Shown here one piece after another: positions 8,325 to 45,360 of a stretch of DNA of 45,360 bases. Position 1 is the first letter of the stretch; each line of letters begins with the position of its first letter. Source of the DNA: Clostridia bacterium. Lineage in GTDB: Bacteria > Bacillota > Clostridia > Oscillospirales > CAG-272. The stretch lies in the NCBI GenBank assembly GCA_017532425.1, contig JAFXJH010000125.1:1-45360 (forward strand), in the 5' to 3' direction. Below the pieces are notes generated by a model. That model saw nothing but the letters and a program-made list of their open reading frames with translations, did no database searches and was not told the DNA's origin. A program made the translations under genes and the position numbers.

Positions 8325-8336
8325 TCTAAAAAAAGT

Positions 8337-8371
8337 ATCGGCAGATGCGCAAGGTCAAAGCATCTGCCGAT
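8337..8371. terminator. Bidirectional terminator between the AbrB-like gene and the pseudo-ATPase gene
   Basis: A perfect 12-bp stem (ATCGGCAGATGC, 8337-8348, with its complement at 8360-8371) and an 11-nt loop. It is flanked by an A run on the left and a T-rich stretch on the right. It lies between convergent genes and can serve both. Confidence 0.85.
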
Positions 8372-8402
8372 ATTTATTATTATATAATATATAGGAAGCT
8401 TT

Positions 8403-10556
8403 CTACACAAAAAGCATCGTGAGTATCCACACAAGTGCCGACCAGAACAGATGGTATAGCGTTATATGCAGAGAAGTGACTCCTGCGAGCGCATCAAGCG
8501 ACGCAAGCAGAAATACAGAAGCAAGTCCGACCACGAAAGCAATTACCTCAAGCAGCAGTCCCGATTTGATAACCGCGCCTGCCCTATCGCATCTGTACAG
8601 CGTTTCGAGAAGCGGTCTTGTTTTACTCTTTGATACTATACCGCCGTCCGCGATCTCACGAACGACCGTCATTTCTTTTTCTGTCTTATATTTGAGCACC
8701 TTTATCGGGAAACGTCCCGTTCCTATTATAGACTCAAGCATAGATATATTTATATTAGGATCACTCGTACGTATAACTATACCCATACCGCTTTTATAAA
8801 GATTCTGAAGTATCTTTTCAAAATCCTTATCGATACTGTAAACGAGTCTTATCTTCAGAGCGATCACGTTACCTATCTCAACGTACATTATTCTGTAATT
8901 CTTATCGCTCTCATCGTCAAGCATATATCCATATTTTGCAAAGTAAGATGCTTGGCCTACTCGAACTCTTTCTCTGTTTACAACAGCTTCAAGTCCGTCA
9001 TCGGATATATCCACGTATTCTACATTTTCATCGGTAACGTTATAATCAGCCGCTCCCGAAAGGATCTTATTAAGCGGTCCGCTTATCGGCTCGAATATTA
9101 CCGACGCGTACGCAAGACCCTTTGAAAAGCTCTCGCTATCCTTCATCGATATTTCATCGAGCCAGACGTTATTTTCGGTAAAGACGTCGGTATCGTTAAA
9201 GGTAACGAAGGCAGGTGCAGAATACTCCATAGTAGCTGTTTCGCCTATTATAGCGGTGCCGCTGCGCGATGCGCGCTTTGAGACCTTATATAGCGGGAAG
9301 GAAAACACGGTATACAGCGAAAAGGGAGTAACGAACATCGCCACAGAGAAAGCTATTCTGAAGCTTTCCGCAAAGCTGTCCGCATTTCGTGTCAAAACAA
9401 GCGTGACCATAACTGCAAGTAGCACAGCGACTATGAAAACACCCGAAAGGCGTTTATAAAGCATTCTGTCAGACGCTCGGAGGCTATATCCCGCGACCTT
9501 TTTAGAGCGAACGACTCTTATATACTTCGCATCCTCGGAAAGATCCATTATTCCCGACGTCGCTTCCCTTTCGGGTGCGGATTCGGTCTTTTTCATTCGT
9601 ACGAGCGAATATTTCACAGACTTCGACGAAACTATCTTAAGTGCGTGCAGCTTGCGCGTAAGGTCAACCCATTTTGAAACAAGGCACATAAGCGAAACCG
9701 CAAACAGCACGAAATTAAAGGGGACAAAATCATCAGCTCCGCCAAAAAGCGAAACCATCTGATATATAATAAGAAAAATCGAGAAAAACGGCAAGAAGCT
9801 TTCGGGTTGTGCCTTAAATCGCACAAGTGAAACAAAGCCGTATTTCATTTCTCTGAACATTATCACTATCGCGAATATCGTGATCTGCAATCCCGCAAGT
9901 GCCGATATACGCACGTCCGAGCTTATGCGAAGAAAAACTTCGTTATTTATTCCAAGCAGAGTAGAATTTTCAAACCAAAATGTAAGTGCCGCAAAAATCA
10001 AGCAGAAAATAATTTTAGGGACGCAAGCAAAAAATTCTTTTTTCAGAGCGAGAAATTCTTTAGTCGAATCAAAATCATTTATCAGCGTTTTATCATCGCT
10101 TTCGATTTCCGATTCTTCATCGCTCTCCTCCATTTCGGGGATTCCGAAGACCTCTCGTATATCGTAGCCGTCATCCTTAGGTTTTTCTTCGAGTGGCTCC
10201 TGCGGAAGCGCAACTTCGTTTTCTTCTTCCTCTGCCGCCGTACTCACAAGCGCGCGCGAATTATCAACCGTACTGTTGATTCCTTTTTCAGCATCATCTA
10301 TCAGCTTAGAGTTTTCACGCATCTGCGAAATAACGCTTGCATTACGAGCAGGTCTTCTGACCGGAGCTTCGTCAAATAAATCTATTTTTTCAGATCTCGT
10401 AGGTATTTCGGGTTTAGTCACACGCTCTGCATAGCTGTGTGGGCGCAACTTCTCCAAAAGCTCATCGCCCGTTTTTTTACTGACAAACGGGCTTGGCGGA
10501 GCGTCATTACTTCCGAGACCGCCAACGTCCTGACGATTCTTTTCATCGTCATTCAT
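8403..10556 (-). CDS. Membrane protein: degenerate, apparently catalytically dead P1B-type ATPase homologue
   Basis: 717 residues. Residues 1-170 are charged, disordered and acidic. Hydrophobic segments lie near 177-197, 217-235, 254-271, 276-296, 371-390, 398-420, 665-685 and 695-717. From 400 on, the order matches a P1B ATPase. TPFSL at 410-414 sits where the CPC metal motif should be, followed by the usual basic stretch SKRASRSGTAIIG. TFNDTDVFT at 452-460 sits where FDKTGTLT should be, with Asn454 in place of the phosphorylated Asp. SGPL at 492-495 replaces the SEHPL nucleotide-binding motif, and RTSDPN near 596 replaces LTGDN. The TGE loop and GDGxND hinge are not found. Pump activity is therefore unlikely; a regulatory or scaffold role is inferred. 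It is the last gene of the rlmB-containing block. The ATG has GGGAGG 8 nt upstream. Confidence 0.72.
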   Translation of the reverse strand: MNDDEKNRQDVGGLGSNDAPPSPFVSKKTGDELLEKLRPHSYAERVTKPEIPTRSEKIDLFDEAPVRRPARNASVISQMRENSKLIDDAEKGINSTVDNSRALVSTAAEEEENEVALPQEPLEEKPKDDGYDIREVFGIPEMEESDEESEIESDDKTLINDFDSTKEFLALKKEFFACVPKIIFCLIFAALTFWFENSTLLGINNEVFLRISSDVRISALAGLQITIFAIVIMFREMKYGFVSLVRFKAQPESFLPFFSIFLIIYQMVSLFGGADDFVPFNFVLFAVSLMCLVSKWVDLTRKLHALKIVSSKSVKYSLVRMKKTESAPEREATSGIMDLSEDAKYIRVVRSKKVAGYSLRASDRMLYKRLSGVFIVAVLLAVMVTLVLTRNADSFAESFRIAFSVAMFVTPFSLYTVFSFPLYKVSKRASRSGTAIIGETATMEYSAPAFVTFNDTDVFTENNVWLDEISMKDSESFSKGLAYASVIFEPISGPLNKILSGAADYNVTDENVEYVDISDDGLEAVVNRERVRVGQASYFAKYGYMLDDESDKNYRIMYVEIGNVIALKIRLVYSIDKDFEKILQNLYKSGMGIVIRTSDPNINISMLESIIGTGRFPIKVLKYKTEKEMTVVREIADGGIVSKSKTRPLLETLYRCDRAGAVIKSGLLLEVIAFVVGLASVFLLASLDALAGVTSLHITLYHLFWSALVWILTMLFV

Positions 10557-34892: not shown

Positions 34893-34917
34893 TAATATCT
34901 ACACCTATCTTTGTCAA
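34889..34917 (-). promoter_or_regulatory. Promoter of rsmE
   Basis: Minus strand TTGACA (34912-34917), 17-nt spacer, TATAAT (34889-34894): full consensus. Confidence 0.88.
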
Positions 34918-35027
34918 CCAAAACAGTACATTTTATTTTGACCTTTTTCGACATCCGCAGGTTATTGGGCGTACAGAGTCAAACTCTCGGACCCGATCTC
35001 AAATATGCCTTTTATCAAAATATATCG

Positions 35028-35056
35028 TTGACATTTTCTGTGCGCTGTGGTATCAT
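35028..35056 (+). promoter_or_regulatory. Promoter of the orphan glycosidase-like gene
   Basis: TTGACA (35028-35033), 17-nt spacer, TATCAT (35051-35056), 31 bp before the ATG. Confidence 0.82.
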
Positions 35057-35087
35057 TATTTTAAATTCAACATACGGAGGTAATATT

Positions 35088-36578
35088 ATGCTTAATACAG
35101 ACGGCCGCTGGAGTATGGTTGTCGGAAATTATTCGGGGATGGAAGCGCTTTCCGCAGACAAGATATACGATCTTATATCCGAATACACAGATTATCTCGT
35201 CGAGATACACACATCGGATAATGCAGACAGCGACTTTATTGCCCAAAGAAACGTAGTAATTATCGGTACTCCCGACTCAAACAAATATATAAAAGAGCTT
35301 ACTGAAAGCGGGATAATCCCCGCAGCCGACGGTGACGAGGGATATTTCATCTCTGTCGGAAAGAATCCGAAAAATGAGGATTATCAGGCTATAATAATTT
35401 CGGCAAACACAGACAAAGGAATATTTTACGGAGCGTCCGATCTTGCAAACAACTACTTTGCAAACGATGTTTACCAAAGAAGTGATTTCAATAAGCTTCG
35501 CACACCGAAGATATTTTCCGCGCCCTTCAATGAAAAGCTGCCCGAGTATTCACGTCTTACCTCTCCCGCAGTAAAAAAACGCGCCATTTGGACCTGGGGA
35601 CACTGCATATACGATTACAAGCGCTTTTTCGACAATATGGCAGAACTTCGTCTTAACGAGATAGTTATCTGGAACGATTTTTGTCCGCTGAACGCCAAAG
35701 ATGTAATAGAATACGCTCATTCGCGCGGTATCGGAGTTATATGGGGATACGCGTGGGGCTGGGACGACAAGGATATGACTCCCGTTGATCTCGTTACCCG
35801 AAGCAACTGGGAAGCGCTTGCCGATCAAATACTTAAAATATACGAGGACTCCTATCTTCCCACGTGTGCAGACGGAATATATTTTCAGTCCTTTACCGAG
35901 ACCGGCAGACGCATACGTGACGGTGTCGTTATTGCCGAAGCGGTCGTTGATTGGGTCAATTTCGTGGCTCGCAAATTCTATGAAAAATATCCCGAGCTTC
36001 ATATTCAGTTCGGTCTGCACGCAACGTCGGTAAAGAACGACCTCGAATATATCGCAAAGGTCGATCCGAAAATTCAGATAGTCTGGGAAAACTGCGGTGC
36101 TTTCCCCTACTGCTACAATCCGTCCAACACGCACGACTTTGACCTCACCTGCGATTTCAGCAGAAAAATAGCAAATCTGCGCGGAAAAGATGATAATTTC
36201 GGAGTAGTCATAAAGGGAATGACCACTCTTTCCTGGGCAGAATTCGAGCATCACAGCGGTCCGTATCTGCTTGGTGTCAGAAGTGCCGACTACACGGCTC
36301 GACATGATGAACAAAAGAGCCGTTACTGGCGTCTTATTCAGTCGAAATGGATAAAAAACGCGAAATATCCTTACGAAACAATAAAGCTTCTCGCAGAAGA
36401 GAAAAACGGCGATCTCGATATGCAGCTTCTTATCGAAGACGGTACCTTTGAGGAAAATCTCTATTTTCCCGTTCTTCTCTCCGCCGAGCTGCTTTGGGGA
36501 GCCGACGAACCGCTTGACGATATCATCGAACGCGTTATGATGAGCAGACACCTGAAATTTGCCGAGTTTGAATATTAA
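35088..36578 (+). CDS. Putative intracellular glycosidase (hexosaminidase-like N-domain plus TIM barrel)
   Basis: 496 residues from the ATG at 35088, which has GGAGG 7 nt upstream; the frame is open further 5' but crosses the promoter. The first 120 residues have a pattern like the small alpha/beta domain ahead of GH20/GH67/GH84 barrels (VVIIGTPDSNKYI, then KGIFYGASDLANNYF). A barrel follows: KKRAIWTWGHCIYDYKRFFD, GIGVIWGYAWGWDD, CADGIYFQSFTETG with an acid near residue 270, then IQIVWENCGAF. No signal peptide. Exact GH family and substrate were not recognised. It stands alone between rsmE and a DUF975 gene. Confidence 0.7.
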   Translation: MLNTDGRWSMVVGNYSGMEALSADKIYDLISEYTDYLVEIHTSDNADSDFIAQRNVVIIGTPDSNKYIKELTESGIIPAADGDEGYFISVGKNPKNEDYQAIIISANTDKGIFYGASDLANNYFANDVYQRSDFNKLRTPKIFSAPFNEKLPEYSRLTSPAVKKRAIWTWGHCIYDYKRFFDNMAELRLNEIVIWNDFCPLNAKDVIEYAHSRGIGVIWGYAWGWDDKDMTPVDLVTRSNWEALADQILKIYEDSYLPTCADGIYFQSFTETGRRIRDGVVIAEAVVDWVNFVARKFYEKYPELHIQFGLHATSVKNDLEYIAKVDPKIQIVWENCGAFPYCYNPSNTHDFDLTCDFSRKIANLRGKDDNFGVVIKGMTTLSWAEFEHHSGPYLLGVRSADYTARHDEQKSRYWRLIQSKWIKNAKYPYETIKLLAEEKNGDLDMQLLIEDGTFEENLYFPVLLSAELLWGADEPLDDIIERVMMSRHLKFAEFEY

Positions 36579-36588
36579 AAAATCAAAT

Positions 36589-36625
36589 AAAAAACGTTCG
36601 CTGTTAAAAACAGCGAACGTTTTTT
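36589..36625. terminator. Bidirectional terminator between the glycosidase-like gene and DUF975 gene
   Basis: Perfect 16-bp stem (AAAAAACGTTCGCTGT, 36589-36604, complement 36610-36625) with a TAAAA loop. Strong in both directions. Confidence 0.92.
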
Positions 36626-36638
36626 ATTTGCATAATTA

Positions 36639-37404: not shown

Positions 37405-39399
37405 TCATTCAAATTCAAGCTCGATCTCAACCCCATCAATAAGCAACTTGCTTCCCCTTGTAGCCAAAGCGAATTTATCCTTACGGTATGCAAGGAGACC
37501 GGTATGTATGCCCTTGTAATTCACACCGTCGATATTAAGATCAAACTCTGTCGGCTCACCTGATAGAATACTCATATTCACAAGCGAAAAGCTTCCGTCC
37601 TCGTAAACGCATCCACCGGCAAAGCGATTCTTCTCAACACCCATTTTTTCGAGCACAGAAAGATCGTAAGTGTCGTACTTCGGAATACTCAGCTCGATTT
37701 CGTTTCCGTCAAAATCAATACCGCTTTTTCCTATCGATGCGATATTTACTCCGTTTTCATATGCTCTGTTCAAGAATTCGTACGTACTCTTTTTTGCGTA
37801 TTTGGGGTAAAGAAATAGGCAATTTTTAAATTTATGGCCGTTAAATGACACTTTATCGCCGTCAAGCGTTATTCTGCCGTCCTCTATCGCGTAGTCGGGT
37901 GCAAGCGCGCTGACATATCCCGCGTTCCATATTTCGCGGCATCTCGGAACTATCTGAAGAGTACCGTCTATATCAAATACGCTTCTCGCGCTGTAATCGG
38001 GGTACCAGTTATTCTGCGCCGCCGCTCCGAAGACGATAAGCAGGTCTGTTTTCGGAAATTCTGTCTGAAAAGGATCAAGCCGGGCTATCTGATCGTCTAT
38101 TTTTTTGATATCTTTTAAGAAATCGGGCTCTGTGAAGCTGCTTCCCCACGTGAAATCCCTGTACGAATGATGCCATTCTCTTGTTCCGAAGGGCGCACCC
38201 TCTATCATATGCGTATAATGCTTCTCGCTGACCTTGTTATAGTACATATCTATGTCTATAGGGCTCCTGCAAGCCATCATTATACCGAGTCTTACCGGAT
38301 AAGGAATATTTTCGTCGATATGTGCTATATCGCGCGGGATATCCCACCAGTTAGCCGCTGTGCGCCATACCTCATCGCTGTCAAGCACGTTATGGAAAGT
38401 ATTATGGCAGGAAACGTAGGCATCCTCACCGAAGACCTCTTTGGTATAATCGTACACCTTTTTTTCTACCTCAAGCGGAAAAACGCGAAGCTTTTCAAAA
38501 TAGGTATTGATTGCCTTTATCCGCACGCTTTCGTCGCTTTCGGGCGCATATCGCATATCAAAAAGAAGTCTGTCGAGATCAATATTCCATCTTTCGGAAT
38601 ATTTTTTCTTCATACCCATAGAATATATTCTTCCTCTGAAGGGCGCATCCTGTCCGCGTGTGATCGGACCTGTATTCAGAAGAATATATCCGTATTCGTC
38701 CATTATAACGCCGTCGAGAGGAATGTCGCTGTAATCGTCGATAATACGCTTATGCTTTTCCCAGTCATCTGTAACTGCCGTGATATTATAAAACCAGGCA
38801 AGAAGCACGAAAACGTTCTTTCCTGCGTTTTCCTTGCCGAGATTCAACGTAAAGCTAGTTTTATACGTTCTCCAATCGGTGATATTCACTTCGTCCGTAA
38901 CGTCAACGAGCGTTCCGTCCTTATAGAAGCCCTCGGCCGTCTTTTCAAAGGCATATGCCTTCAAGACCTGCGAATAGATAGGCATAAACTTTTTACGTGC
39001 TCCGACTGCCGTATGTGTACACTGCACGAAGCCGTTTTCGTCGGCAACAAGCTCTATGTCGTTTACTATAGCCTCTGCCTTATCAGGCTCGGGTATCGGG
39101 AACATTTCAAGGCGGTCGACCGGATCCTCGGAAAATACCGAGCAGTTATAAAATCCCGTCTCTACTACAAGTCTGAGACAGACCTTGATACCAAGGCTGT
39201 GCGCATATTCTGTCAGCTCCTTCAAGGCCTTATGGCACTGCTGTTTGTTCTGAAGCGATATTCCGGCACCCACACCAATGCCGAGATGGGTGATACTCAT
39301 ATGCTTTTTTATAAAATCAAGCTCTTTTATATAGCCTCTGTTTACAAGGTCTTCATTTCGCAAGCCGAAATAAAGGCTTATCGGTATTTCTCTTTTCAC
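37405..39399 (-). CDS. Putative glycosidase of unknown family, partner of a glycyl radical enzyme
   Basis: 664 residues from the GTG at 39399, with GAGG 8 nt upstream; the frame is open further but overlaps the upstream gene. A TIM barrel is suggested by ITHLGIGVGAGIS, GIKVCLRLVVETGF and LDGVIMDEYGY at 228-238, where Asp234 and Glu235 could be catalytic. A beta-rich insertion (DWRTYKTSFTLNLG) interrupts the barrel. A Rossmann-like segment (KTDLLIVFGAA) follows, then C-terminal strands ending in KLLIDGVEIELEFE. No signal peptide. The layout recalls intracellular barrel glycosidases with a trimerisation-like domain. It lies 26 bp after the glycyl radical enzyme gene and is surely co-transcribed with it. 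Confidence 0.65.
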   Translation of the reverse strand: MKREIPISLYFGLRNEDLVNRGYIKELDFIKKHMSITHLGIGVGAGISLQNKQQCHKALKELTEYAHSLGIKVCLRLVVETGFYNCSVFSEDPVDRLEMFPIPEPDKAEAIVNDIELVADENGFVQCTHTAVGARKKFMPIYSQVLKAYAFEKTAEGFYKDGTLVDVTDEVNITDWRTYKTSFTLNLGKENAGKNVFVLLAWFYNITAVTDDWEKHKRIIDDYSDIPLDGVIMDEYGYILLNTGPITRGQDAPFRGRIYSMGMKKKYSERWNIDLDRLLFDMRYAPESDESVRIKAINTYFEKLRVFPLEVEKKVYDYTKEVFGEDAYVSCHNTFHNVLDSDEVWRTAANWWDIPRDIAHIDENIPYPVRLGIMMACRSPIDIDMYYNKVSEKHYTHMIEGAPFGTREWHHSYRDFTWGSSFTEPDFLKDIKKIDDQIARLDPFQTEFPKTDLLIVFGAAAQNNWYPDYSARSVFDIDGTLQIVPRCREIWNAGYVSALAPDYAIEDGRITLDGDKVSFNGHKFKNCLFLYPKYAKKSTYEFLNRAYENGVNIASIGKSGIDFDGNEIELSIPKYDTYDLSVLEKMGVEKNRFAGGCVYEDGSFSLVNMSILSGEPTEFDLNIDGVNYKGIHTGLLAYRKDKFALATRGSKLLIDGVEIELEFE

Positions 39400-39425
39400 G
39401 GTAATTACCTCACAATAATTTGGTT

Positions 39426-41642
39426 TCAGCAAAGGCTTTCTGCCTGCTTTATAAATGCATCCTGCTCTACCTTGCTTATATTGTTCCAGAGCACGTTCCA
39501 TCCGCAGACTCTTATCTGCAGATCGCGGTATTTTTCGGGATTTGCCTGCGCGTCGCGAAGGAGATCCGCGTCGAAAACATTCATATGAAGCGCGTGACCG
39601 CCGCGCTTTACGAAGGTCATAAGCAGTCCGTACATAGCTTCAAGCCCGTCATCCCCCTTGACCGCCGACGGCAGAAGTCCGACATCTATCGCCGCATCGC
39701 AGGTAAATGTCGAAGCGTCTATCTTTGTTGCCGAGAGAATTGCGGCTGTCGCGCCCTCTCTGTTTTGTCCCATCGAAGCCGAAACGTTTTTCGATAGCTC
39801 TTCTCCGATAAGGCGTCCGTTTGGTGAGGATGCCGTCTTATCGGCGAAGATATACGACATTCTTGCAACGTGGAAGCCGCAGTTCCATTTACCGCCGCGC
39901 GAATTTTCTCTTCCGCAGAGATTTGTTGTAATAAAGTTCACGATATCAACGGCAAGATCATCGGGGCGATCCTTATTATTGCCGTATTTTTCACGGTCAG
40001 CGAGCAGCTTCTGACGGAATTTTTCATGTCCTTCATAATTTTTGCCAAGAATATCGACAAATTCCTCGAGCGTGAGCTCCTTTTTATCGTAAACGTACTT
40101 GCGTATCATATTAAGCGAATCCGCGATATCCGCAAGAAATCCGAAGAGCACAACCGAATTGTTACTGCTTCCTCCGCCCGCTATCGCATCCTTCTTCTTT
40201 TCAAGACAGCTCGGGAAGGTTGCAGACAGCATAGACAGCGGATTTATATACGAGAGATATCCCTCAAATGCGTTTACCGTTTCTACGGTAACGTCTATTC
40301 CGCGGAGAAGTTGTCTTTTATATTCGCTGTAAAGACTGTCGAAGGTTTTGTATTCCGAAAGATCGGGGCTCAAGTTGCCCGAGAAAACACCTGTCACGCC
40401 GTCGTATCCCTTATGCAGAGCATATTCGAGCGATTTTAGCATATTAAGATAGTTCATTCCCGCGTGGAATGAGCCCTTAGGGGAATATTCATAGCATCCC
40501 GTTATATTACAAAGGCGGGCATCCTCCTCGGAAATTCCTGTTCTTTCAAGCGCGCGGCGAATCGTCGAATCTGAAACGAAAACAATAGAGTTGTGTCCTC
40601 TGCGAATCATATCCAGTGCCTTAAGAGCGAGAGTTTTAGGTGTACTTTCGCTCAGCTTTATCTGTATTTTCGGGCAGTACAGACCCATTTTATCGTAAAC
40701 GTCAAGCAGCATATAAGAAAGCTCGTTTATTACGCTTGTGCCGTCCCCATTCTCACCGCCTATATACAGCGGCTGATTCCAGTAGTTCCCTATAGAGTCA
40801 AACTGAAGGAAATAATATGCAAGCTCTGTGCGAAGCTCTTTCTCGCTTATGCCGTTTGCAAGATCATTTTTATAGAATTCATAGAAGGTCTGATCAAATC
40901 CCGAAAGCGAGCGTACCTGCAGGCCGTCAACGTGTTCGCTTATGATAAAATAAATATAGGACATAAGAAGTGCTTCGTAGAAGCTTTTTGGCGGATTGTG
41001 TGCTATATTTTTGAGTGCCTTCGCCATTTTTTCAGAGCCATCGGTCTTTTCGGCAAGAGCTGCAAGGCGCTCTGCAAGCGTAATTATAGCTTCGTAAGTA
41101 ATCTTTATTCCCTCGAAAAAGATTTCTTCTTCATCCGTCATATTCTGCAAGCGGCGCACCTTCTCGCTTTCCTCGAGAATACCCGAAAATCCGAGGCTGA
41201 AAAGTCTTTCCCAAACGGGAACGCTGTGGTCATAGTCCGGCCAAATGGTCACTATACCGTCTTTTTCAAGCTGTGTTCTCTTTTTTCCGACCTCGGGAAT
41301 TATATTTCCGAAGACCTCTGCCTTCCACTTATTTATCAGTGTCTGATTGATCGGACGGTCGGTCATATTCAGTGCGGGAAAAATATCTCTGCTATCGCAA
41401 GATATTCTTGTATTTTTCAGTACAAATTCAAATGCTTTTGCCTTACGTATCGGATGCGGAAGGTCCTTGATTTTTTCATCCTCGCTGATTATCGTATCAA
41501 TTATGATCTTGGGGGCAAGTCCGCTGTCAGGCGAAAAAATTTCGTCACGGCGGATAAATCTTGCATGACCGTCAAATGGTTTTGAGCTATCGTGGTATTT
41601 ATTTATTATATACTCATAATCGTTCTGTCTGATATATTCCAT
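39426..41642 (-). CDS. Glycyl radical enzyme of the PFL-like family, substrate unknown
   Basis: 738 residues. The PFL-like domain includes GNYWNQPLYIGG, TGCYEYSPKG with thiyl Cys383 and base Glu385 (the GCxE pattern of diol, glycerol and hydroxyproline dehydratases and choline lyase, not the CC of pyruvate formate-lyase), GGGSSNNSV, and GGHALHMNVFDADLL. The C-terminal glycyl radical loop is RVCGWNVLW, with Gly714; RVSGYSVxF is usual, so Cys713, Trp715 and Asn716 are unusual. An oxygen-sensitive dehydratase or lyase is inferred. No radical SAM activase is in the window. Divergent AraC gene upstream, glycosidase-like gene downstream. GGAGG lies 7 nt before the ATG. Confidence 0.88.
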   Translation of the reverse strand: MEYIRQNDYEYIINKYHDSSKPFDGHARFIRRDEIFSPDSGLAPKIIIDTIISEDEKIKDLPHPIRKAKAFEFVLKNTRISCDSRDIFPALNMTDRPINQTLINKWKAEVFGNIIPEVGKKRTQLEKDGIVTIWPDYDHSVPVWERLFSLGFSGILEESEKVRRLQNMTDEEEIFFEGIKITYEAIITLAERLAALAEKTDGSEKMAKALKNIAHNPPKSFYEALLMSYIYFIISEHVDGLQVRSLSGFDQTFYEFYKNDLANGISEKELRTELAYYFLQFDSIGNYWNQPLYIGGENGDGTSVINELSYMLLDVYDKMGLYCPKIQIKLSESTPKTLALKALDMIRRGHNSIVFVSDSTIRRALERTGISEEDARLCNITGCYEYSPKGSFHAGMNYLNMLKSLEYALHKGYDGVTGVFSGNLSPDLSEYKTFDSLYSEYKRQLLRGIDVTVETVNAFEGYLSYINPLSMLSATFPSCLEKKKDAIAGGGSSNNSVVLFGFLADIADSLNMIRKYVYDKKELTLEEFVDILGKNYEGHEKFRQKLLADREKYGNNKDRPDDLAVDIVNFITTNLCGRENSRGGKWNCGFHVARMSYIFADKTASSPNGRLIGEELSKNVSASMGQNREGATAAILSATKIDASTFTCDAAIDVGLLPSAVKGDDGLEAMYGLLMTFVKRGGHALHMNVFDADLLRDAQANPEKYRDLQIRVCGWNVLWNNISKVEQDAFIKQAESLC

Positions 41643-41671
41643 AATGAAACCTCCAACAAATCTGTAGTTTA

Positions 41672-41701
41672 ATTATATATCACGTTCCTATTTTTTGTAA
41701 A
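41672..41701 (-). promoter_or_regulatory. Promoter of the glycyl radical enzyme operon
   Basis: Minus strand TTTACA (41696-41701), 18-nt spacer, TATAAT (41672-41677). Back to back with the AraC promoter, their -35 boxes only 18 bp apart. Confidence 0.8.
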
Positions 41702-41718
41702 TAAACAAATCACAACAC

Positions 41719-41747
41719 TTGACGAAATCGATACAATATTATATAAT
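41719..41747 (+). promoter_or_regulatory. Promoter of the second AraC gene
   Basis: TTGACG (41719-41724), 17-nt spacer, TATAAT (41742-41747). The expected transcript start near 41754 makes the GTG codons at 41756-41761 unlikely starts and favours the TTG at 41768. Confidence 0.85.
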
Positions 41748-41767
41748 ATTATCGGGTGGTGATAACA

Positions 41768-42544
41768 TTGTTCGAAAATATAAACGATATCGTGATATCA
41801 AAAGTATCGCTTGCCGTCTACGTTGAAAGCGGAACCGGGCAAAGCGTGCACACCGACCGTAAGTTTCACGGTCTTGTATTAAACGACGATACATCCGTAA
41901 AGGATTATTGCTTCTCTGACGGAAGTGTGCTTCACACGTTTGAAAACTCGATCTTTTATCTTCCCAAGGGCTCGTCATACGTTGTAAAGGACGTCTGCCG
42001 CGGTTCGTGCTATGCGATAAATTTCGACGCAAATATAGACTCGGCTCCCTTTTGCATCAAGCCGCGCAGCAAGGAAGGATTTCTGAAGCTTTTCCGCGAT
42101 GCCGAAAAGAAATGGAAGCGCCCTGACACGGGAAACTTATACGTTATGCGCACGCTTTACGATATTCTGCTTGAAATTCATAGCGATCAGCAAAAGTCGT
42201 ATATGCCCGATTCGAATTTTGAAATCATATCTCCCGCGCTGAAAAAAATATCCTCTGATTTTACCGACAATTCCCTTTCGGTTGCAGAGCTTGCAAGGCT
42301 TTGTAATATCAGCGAGGCATATTTCCGACGCATATTTATAAACAAATTCGGAGTTTCACCCAAGGAATACATAATATCCATGCGAATAAACTACGCCGAG
42401 CGTCTTCTGCGCTCCGGACAGATCTCAGTTTCCGAGGTAGCCTCTCTCTGCGGATATTTCGAAGCCTGCTATTTCTCACGTGATTTTAGACGGCGTGTCG
42501 GAGCATCTCCGAGCGAATATCAAAAACAGCATTCGGCAAAATAA
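41768..42544 (+). CDS. AraC family transcriptional regulator of the glycyl radical enzyme locus
   Basis: 258 residues from a TTG at 41768 (MFENINDIVIS), with GGTGGTGAT 7 nt upstream; a GTG four codons earlier is the alternative. N-terminal cupin sensor (LPKGSSYVVKDVCRGSCYAI) and C-terminal double helix-turn-helix: LSVAELARLCNISEAYFRRIF and ISVSEVASLCGYFEACYFSRD, ending GASPSEYQ. It is divergent from the enzyme and glycosidase genes with back-to-back promoters, so it very probably controls them. Its stop codon lies inside the terminator. Confidence 0.92.
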   Translation: MFENINDIVISKVSLAVYVESGTGQSVHTDRKFHGLVLNDDTSVKDYCFSDGSVLHTFENSIFYLPKGSSYVVKDVCRGSCYAINFDANIDSAPFCIKPRSKEGFLKLFRDAEKKWKRPDTGNLYVMRTLYDILLEIHSDQQKSYMPDSNFEIISPALKKISSDFTDNSLSVAELARLCNISEAYFRRIFINKFGVSPKEYIISMRINYAERLLRSGQISVSEVASLCGYFEACYFSRDFRRRVGASPSEYQKQHSAK

Positions 42545-45247: not shown

Positions 45248-45360
45248 GTGTGCCGTTTCTCTGCGTATAGTGGGTTCGGGCTTCTGCCCGACTGTGCGCG
45301 GACTGCCACACGCTATGCTTGCCCCAGACGCGAGCGTCGGGAAAGCGGAAAAGCTCGAAA
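45248..45360. other. Window end without recognised feature
   Basis: GC-richer stretch with a small hairpin (GGGC/GCCC around TTCT, near 45277-45290). No gene was recognised; it may belong to a feature beyond the edge. Confidence 0.4.

Follow-up and report, generated by a model that had tools for sequence, protein, structure and literature searches.

We found, in an uncultured gut bacterium of the Clostridia (its named relatives are hindgut MAGs from goats, sheep and deer), a locus that we read, with a probability of about one half, as an AraC-induced radical eliminase unit for a polyol or sugar derivative originating from plant carbohydrate. The locus is real and orderly: a gene for an oxygen-sensitive glycyl radical enzyme (GRE) is followed by a downstream gene and faces a divergent AraC-family gene across back-to-back promoters. 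It lies in the window, by which we mean the whole stretch of DNA analysed (45,360 nucleotides).

Layout of the locus

The features referred to below are as follows.

34911..36578 (also taken from 35088), plus strand: ORF convergent to the operon, weakly similar to the GH67 N-terminal domain (Pfam and PDB matches)
37405..39396, minus strand: downstream partner protein, 663 aa, without known family (start from relatives and an upstream GAGG)
39426..41642, minus strand: GRE, 738 aa (Pfam, NCBIfam and PDB searches; motif columns; AlphaFold model)
41672..41701, minus strand: GRE promoter, TTTACA-18-TATAAT (both hexamers kept in relatives)
41692..41740, minus strand: conserved inter-promoter block, a probable operator for AraC (footprint, 16 relatives)
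41719..41747, plus strand: AraC-gene promoter, TTGACG-17-TATAAT (kept in relatives)
41756..42544, plus strand: AraC-family regulator (HTH_18, E 1.5e-21)
45278..45352, plus strand: repeat copy, common to the start of contig C107 (91% over 75 bp)

The AraC and GRE genes are separated by 113 bp, which hold both promoters. The true start of the AraC gene may be the TTG at 41768. The partner likely starts at the GTG at 39396, rather than at the ATG at 39501, because its relatives begin there and a GAGG stands just 5' of it; a start at this GTG leaves a gap of 29 nt after the GRE gene, with no overlap.

The convergent ORF matched Glyco_hydro_67N (E 0.025) and Glyco_hydro_20b (E 0.03) weakly in Pfam and the GH67 alpha-glucuronidase structures 1h41/1gqi (E 0.043) in the PDB. 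Homologues of it also occur near GREs of the same clade as the window GRE (see below) in loci L038 and L014. It is a possible accessory, which we did not assign to the operon. Between the convergent genes lies a bidirectional terminator-like hairpin with a perfect 20-bp stem (36584-36630).

Identity of the glycyl radical enzyme

Both GRE domains scored above their Pfam cut-offs (PFL-like, E 6e-91, 306.4 bits against 24.3; Gly_radical, E 4e-19, 69.6 bits against 22.2), and the catalytic residues could be located: the thiyl Cys383 in GCYE, Glu385, His139 and the radical Gly714 in RVCGWNVLW. With Cys383 and Gly714 kept, the sequence places the protein in the GRE superfamily. The top-ranking NCBIfam models were a PFL2-3 subfamily (310.9 bits, cut-off 678) and HypD, which was the best-scoring equivalog model yet stayed below its cut-off (298.5 bits against 1100); HypD also gave the best PDB profile match (362.6 bits). 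The models for PFL, CutC, HpsG/HpfG, PflD, HPAD and indoleacetate decarboxylase reached 76-232 bits against cut-offs of 994-1150, and PflD identity was rejected at 223.8 bits against 1109. Judged by sequence, the enzyme belongs to the eliminase branch and falls outside every characterised group. An earlier note on this DNA had described it as a GRE with the GCYE site of that branch and no assigned substrate, a description borne out by the Pfam domains, by Cys383, Glu385 and Gly714, and by the structural matches given below.

A tree of 85 sequences, with relatives drawn from neighbouring genomes of the same bacterial family, placed the window GRE within a 60-member clade (SH-aLRT 99). In a second tree, nine references (HypD, glycerol dehydratase, archaeal PFL2, N-methyl-hydroxyproline dehydratase, YbiW, a Klebsiella YbiW homologue, PflD, a Citrobacter pdu-linked GRE and a Peptoclostridium GRE) grouped together (SH-aLRT 97), outside the clade (99). 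Clustering inside a characterised group, which the earlier note had named as speaking against its reading, was therefore not seen, nor was the loss of Gly714 in homologues that it had named beside it: Cys383, His139 and Gly714 are each present in 60/60 members, and Glu385 in 58/60. Asp136, Arg244, Pro291, Lys325, Asp653 and Trp715 are diagnostic of the clade at 60/60 each, as are Lys618 (59/60), Asn716 (56/60) and Tyr384 (55/60). The RVCGWNVLW loop, previously taken as non-standard, turned out to be the normal loop of this clade. In two members (L101:3964-6201, minus strand, and L116:8387-10642, plus strand) Asn takes the place of the catalytic Glu that follows the thiyl Cys (GCNNF and GCYNF), a replacement that suggests changed chemistry.

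A sample of the phylum with 397 further genomes gave no match at 1e-85, so that the clade looks largely confined to its bacterial family; a Lentisphaeria MAG contig (L016) carries one fragment, 45% identical. Our literature search, in which subscription journals were thinly covered, found no paper on the GCYE/RVCGWN clade.

Gene neighbourhoods and the substrate

All 12 lipoproteins resembling solute-binding proteins (SBPs) that lie within 5 kb of any GRE adjoin a clade member in same-strand orientation (their assignment as SBP-like depends on weak Pfam scores, 1.5e-5 at best), and the SMP-30-type lactonases (3) and GDSL esterases (4) are likewise found beside clade GREs on the same strand. An EamA transporter and a SASA esterase occur in L010/L012. 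Because SBPs, lactonases and esterases adjoin clade GREs, a carbohydrate-derived substrate is favoured. We identified no pathway enzyme in the window operon that would take on an aldehyde or ketone product, and next to the operon no aldehyde dehydrogenase or microcompartment gene. The proposal that the locus uncaps a sugar conjugate and then dehydrates the product is not supported as stated; what speaks for it, as a hypothesis, is the carbohydrate flavour of these neighbourhoods.

The enzyme could instead be a dehydratase of the hydroxyproline type, acting on a cyclic amino acid, with a partner that could deglycosylate glycosylated hydroxyproline from plant cell-wall glycoproteins. HypD, an amino-acid enzyme, and the N-methyl-hydroxyproline dehydratases are the closest known enzymes by sequence, HypD heading both the PDB profile and the equivalog models; it shares with the window protein the GRE fold and the catalytic Cys, Glu and Gly, and both are without the Asp of the 'WHD' segment of glycerol dehydratase. 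However, HypD is only ~24% identical to the window GRE, has neither the GCYE nor the RVCGWN motif, lies with the references outside the clade, and has a cut-off that the window GRE does not approach, while the neighbours of the clade are the SBPs, lactonases and esterases just described. We consider this alternative unlikely.

The partner protein

The partner gave no Pfam, NCBIfam or PDB match at any threshold tried, PDB profile searches with five and six partner sequences returned nothing, and no homologue was found in viral contigs. It had been presented as a glycosidase-like barrel of no recognised family. The absence of a recognised family stands; the barrel is no more than a conjecture, as there is no family match and the AlphaFold model, built from a two-sequence alignment, is unusable (pLDDT 44). 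The glycosidase likeness is equally conjectural, since no family matched and the hhalign comparison with GHL6 and GH42 was negative (with a shallow partner profile; the GHL6 versus GH42 control gave 98%). The Asp-Glu of 'MDEYG' is invariant in six partner homologues, and the Glu of 'IEGAPF' is retained only in the four that are GRE-linked.

The partner is rare, occurring in 4 of 295 genomes of the bacterial family. The possibility that it is a passenger or an unrelated enzyme, and that the GRE alone acts on an imported small molecule, is in keeping with the few clade loci that carry it (most consist of a GRE and then an activase) and with the more distant homologues located away from GREs (L040, L125). 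Against this, homologues with at least 50% identity stand directly behind a clade GRE in 4/4 genomes, in one case behind a clade GRE only 34% identical to that of the window, and in two of these four loci (L013 and L039) the gene order is GRE-partner-activase. The constant adjacency, kept even with the 34%-identical GRE, argues for a functional rather than accidental link to this candidate partner, though a rare one, and we regard the passenger explanation as doubtful.

Structure model and comparison with known enzymes

The AlphaFold model of the GRE (pLDDT 81, pTM 0.85) resembled propanediol dehydratase most (5i2g, Foldseek TM 0.82; 5i2g/5i2a, VIA-align Z 33.9 over 677 residues), with HypD at Z 33.1. 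The top matches were propanediol, hydroxyproline and glycerol dehydratases at Z 32-34; YbiW/PflD-type structures (8id7, 8id0) were also among the matches. Rows at most one Z unit apart were counted as tied, so the model indicates an eliminase-type GRE and nothing finer.

Glycerol dehydratase has a hydroxyl-binding Ser282 and the Asp of 'WHD'. In the window GRE, Val243 occupies the Ser282 column and is followed by the clade-invariant Arg244, and the segment aligned with 'WHD' contains no Asp. A diverged 1,2-diol (propanediol or glycerol) dehydratase is thus very improbable: although 5i2a/5i2g and 1r8w are the best Foldseek and VIA-align matches and the catalytic Cys, Glu and His are retained, both of these positions are replaced, the references that group outside the clade include glycerol dehydratase and the pdu-linked GRE, and the window locus shows no microcompartment context or adjoining aldehyde dehydrogenase gene.

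YbiW and PflD (8id7, 8yjo) are GREs that act on a sugar-derived polyol, opening 1,5-anhydrohexitol 6-phosphates (PMC12441222), and the post-Cys segment 'GMxxxN' and the Gln of 'xQxxxxGG' of YbiW are similar in the window GRE. They differ in that their substrates are phosphosugars from PTS uptake (PMC12441222) and in that both group with the other references in the tree, outside the clade.

Regulation

The C-terminal HTH_18 of the regulator (76.9 bits against a cut-off of 33.6) identifies an AraC-family HTH, and the two divergent promoters are sigma-70-like, with 11/12 matches each. The back-to-back promoters stated in the earlier note are thereby confirmed, and AraC control from them is probable. 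In the upstream regions of 16 relatives, a conserved block with the consensus TTGTTTCGATTTCGTCAAGTGTTTTGATTT..TCATTTACA spans from the -35 of the AraC gene to the -35 of the GRE gene, and the sequence flanking it is not conserved. The window holds a single match (41716-41733, 1 mismatch) against 0.07 expected, and a weak 18-bp direct repeat lies inside the block. This footprint makes the block at 41692..41740 a probable AraC operator. The same core is found in L026, the region of contig C39 that encodes a GRE paralogue 71% identical to the window GRE. Of 55 clade loci that could be tested, at least 33 have a divergent AraC gene beside the GRE, a lower bound from simple ORF calls.

The arrangement resembles AraC/RhaS/MelR-type sugar operons in its divergent regulator gene and in a conserved block that abuts the -35 box. 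It differs from them in that the regulator scores far below every named AraC-type NCBIfam model and in that the internal 18-bp repeat is weak.

Probable activation in trans

No activase gene was found within the 45 kb window. The absence of a nearby activase, reported before, therefore holds, but it is partly an effect of the contig end, which lies 3.7 kb upstream of the GRE start. The repeat at 45278..45352 also stands at the start of C107, where it is followed by genes for an activase and an AraC-HTH::GRE fusion, and in the same-genus genome G107 the regions matching the window end and C107 are contiguous; a further GRE-activase pair thus probably lies just past the end of the window. The radical loop of the C107 GRE (RVSGFSQKF) differs from that of the window GRE. 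The repeat belongs to a family that matched about 20 times across many contigs, frequently close to their ends, and that probably broke the assembly at the window end.

Among the relatives, at least 37 of the 56 clade loci that could be tested (again a lower bound) have a same-strand activase close to the GRE, and the AraC-GRE-activase cassette is common. A check of the relatives, as had been advised, thus shows a cognate activase in the operon of most; the window operon is without one, and both here and in G107 the partner occupies the usual activase position. Several activase homologues are encoded elsewhere in the genome. The two that come closest to the cognate L013 activase are those of contigs C91 and C39, and the GREs of both contigs have a radical loop identical to that of the window GRE; the C39 paralogue retains its own activase. 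Because the window has no activase, and because of the similarity to the L013 activase, the identical loops and the common operator, the GRE is most likely activated in trans by the activase of C39, perhaps by that of C91. The suggestion of activation in trans in the earlier note is likely to be right.

Proposed mechanism

We return to the reading as an AraC-induced eliminase unit. An effector-bound AraC protein would bind the conserved block that immediately precedes the -35 box and turn on the GRE and its partner, and a radical-SAM activase, most likely that of C39 given the identical loop and the same promoter block, would charge the GRE in trans. As in the GRE eliminase branch, the Gly714 radical would generate a thiyl at Cys383, which would abstract hydrogen from a substrate carbon, and Glu385 and His139 would help to eliminate an adjacent hydroxyl or ether group. 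The substrate would most likely be a small polyhydroxylated compound from plant carbohydrate. In what we see as the weakest step, the partner probably supplies or processes this substrate.

More tentatively, and with odds that we put well below those of the eliminase unit itself, the clade might be a functionally new GRE branch, with enzymes that cleave C-O bonds in unphosphorylated plant sugars or their glycosides and might even attack the glycosidic or ether bond directly in a radical elimination; in this family of Clostridia from herbivore hindguts it would have diversified into many paralogues, each under its own regulation.

GRE repertoire and significance

The genome of the window (2.38 Mb) contains 19 Gly_radical loci, with 18 full-length GREs. 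A curated cut-off is reached by just one of them, the pyruvate formate-lyase on C136; the other 17 are below every NCBIfam cut-off. Genomes G056 and G107 have 20 and 18 GREs, and most genomes of the family only a few.

Two GREs of this collection carry an AraC-type HTH fused in frame to the N-terminus (L029:1241-3859, minus strand, on contig C107, and L038:564-3164, plus strand), with domain matches to HTH_18 (1e-19) and PFL-like (1e-123). The fusion is covered at near full length, HTH included, in five genomes, one copy containing a TAG, and three more distant relatives are without the HTH part. It may be an enzyme that itself regulates genes; the literature search, with its thin coverage of subscription journals, found no paper on it. 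Other GREs have a GCNW active-site motif: a tandem pair (L023:6084-8279 and 8333-10507, plus strand) and a single gene (L025:7839-10121, minus strand). These form a long separate branch, and no NCBIfam GRE model scores them above 215 bits.

For many of the GREs abundant in the gut, no function is known (PMC11574389). The clade is a large, uncharacterised GRE branch, probably switched on by a sugar-type regulator, and the window locus offers a compact entry to it, with a defined clade, diagnostic residues, a probable operator, a candidate trans activase and a candidate partner. Finding out what this clade does would probably reveal a new anaerobic route by which plant-derived carbohydrate is used in ruminant guts.
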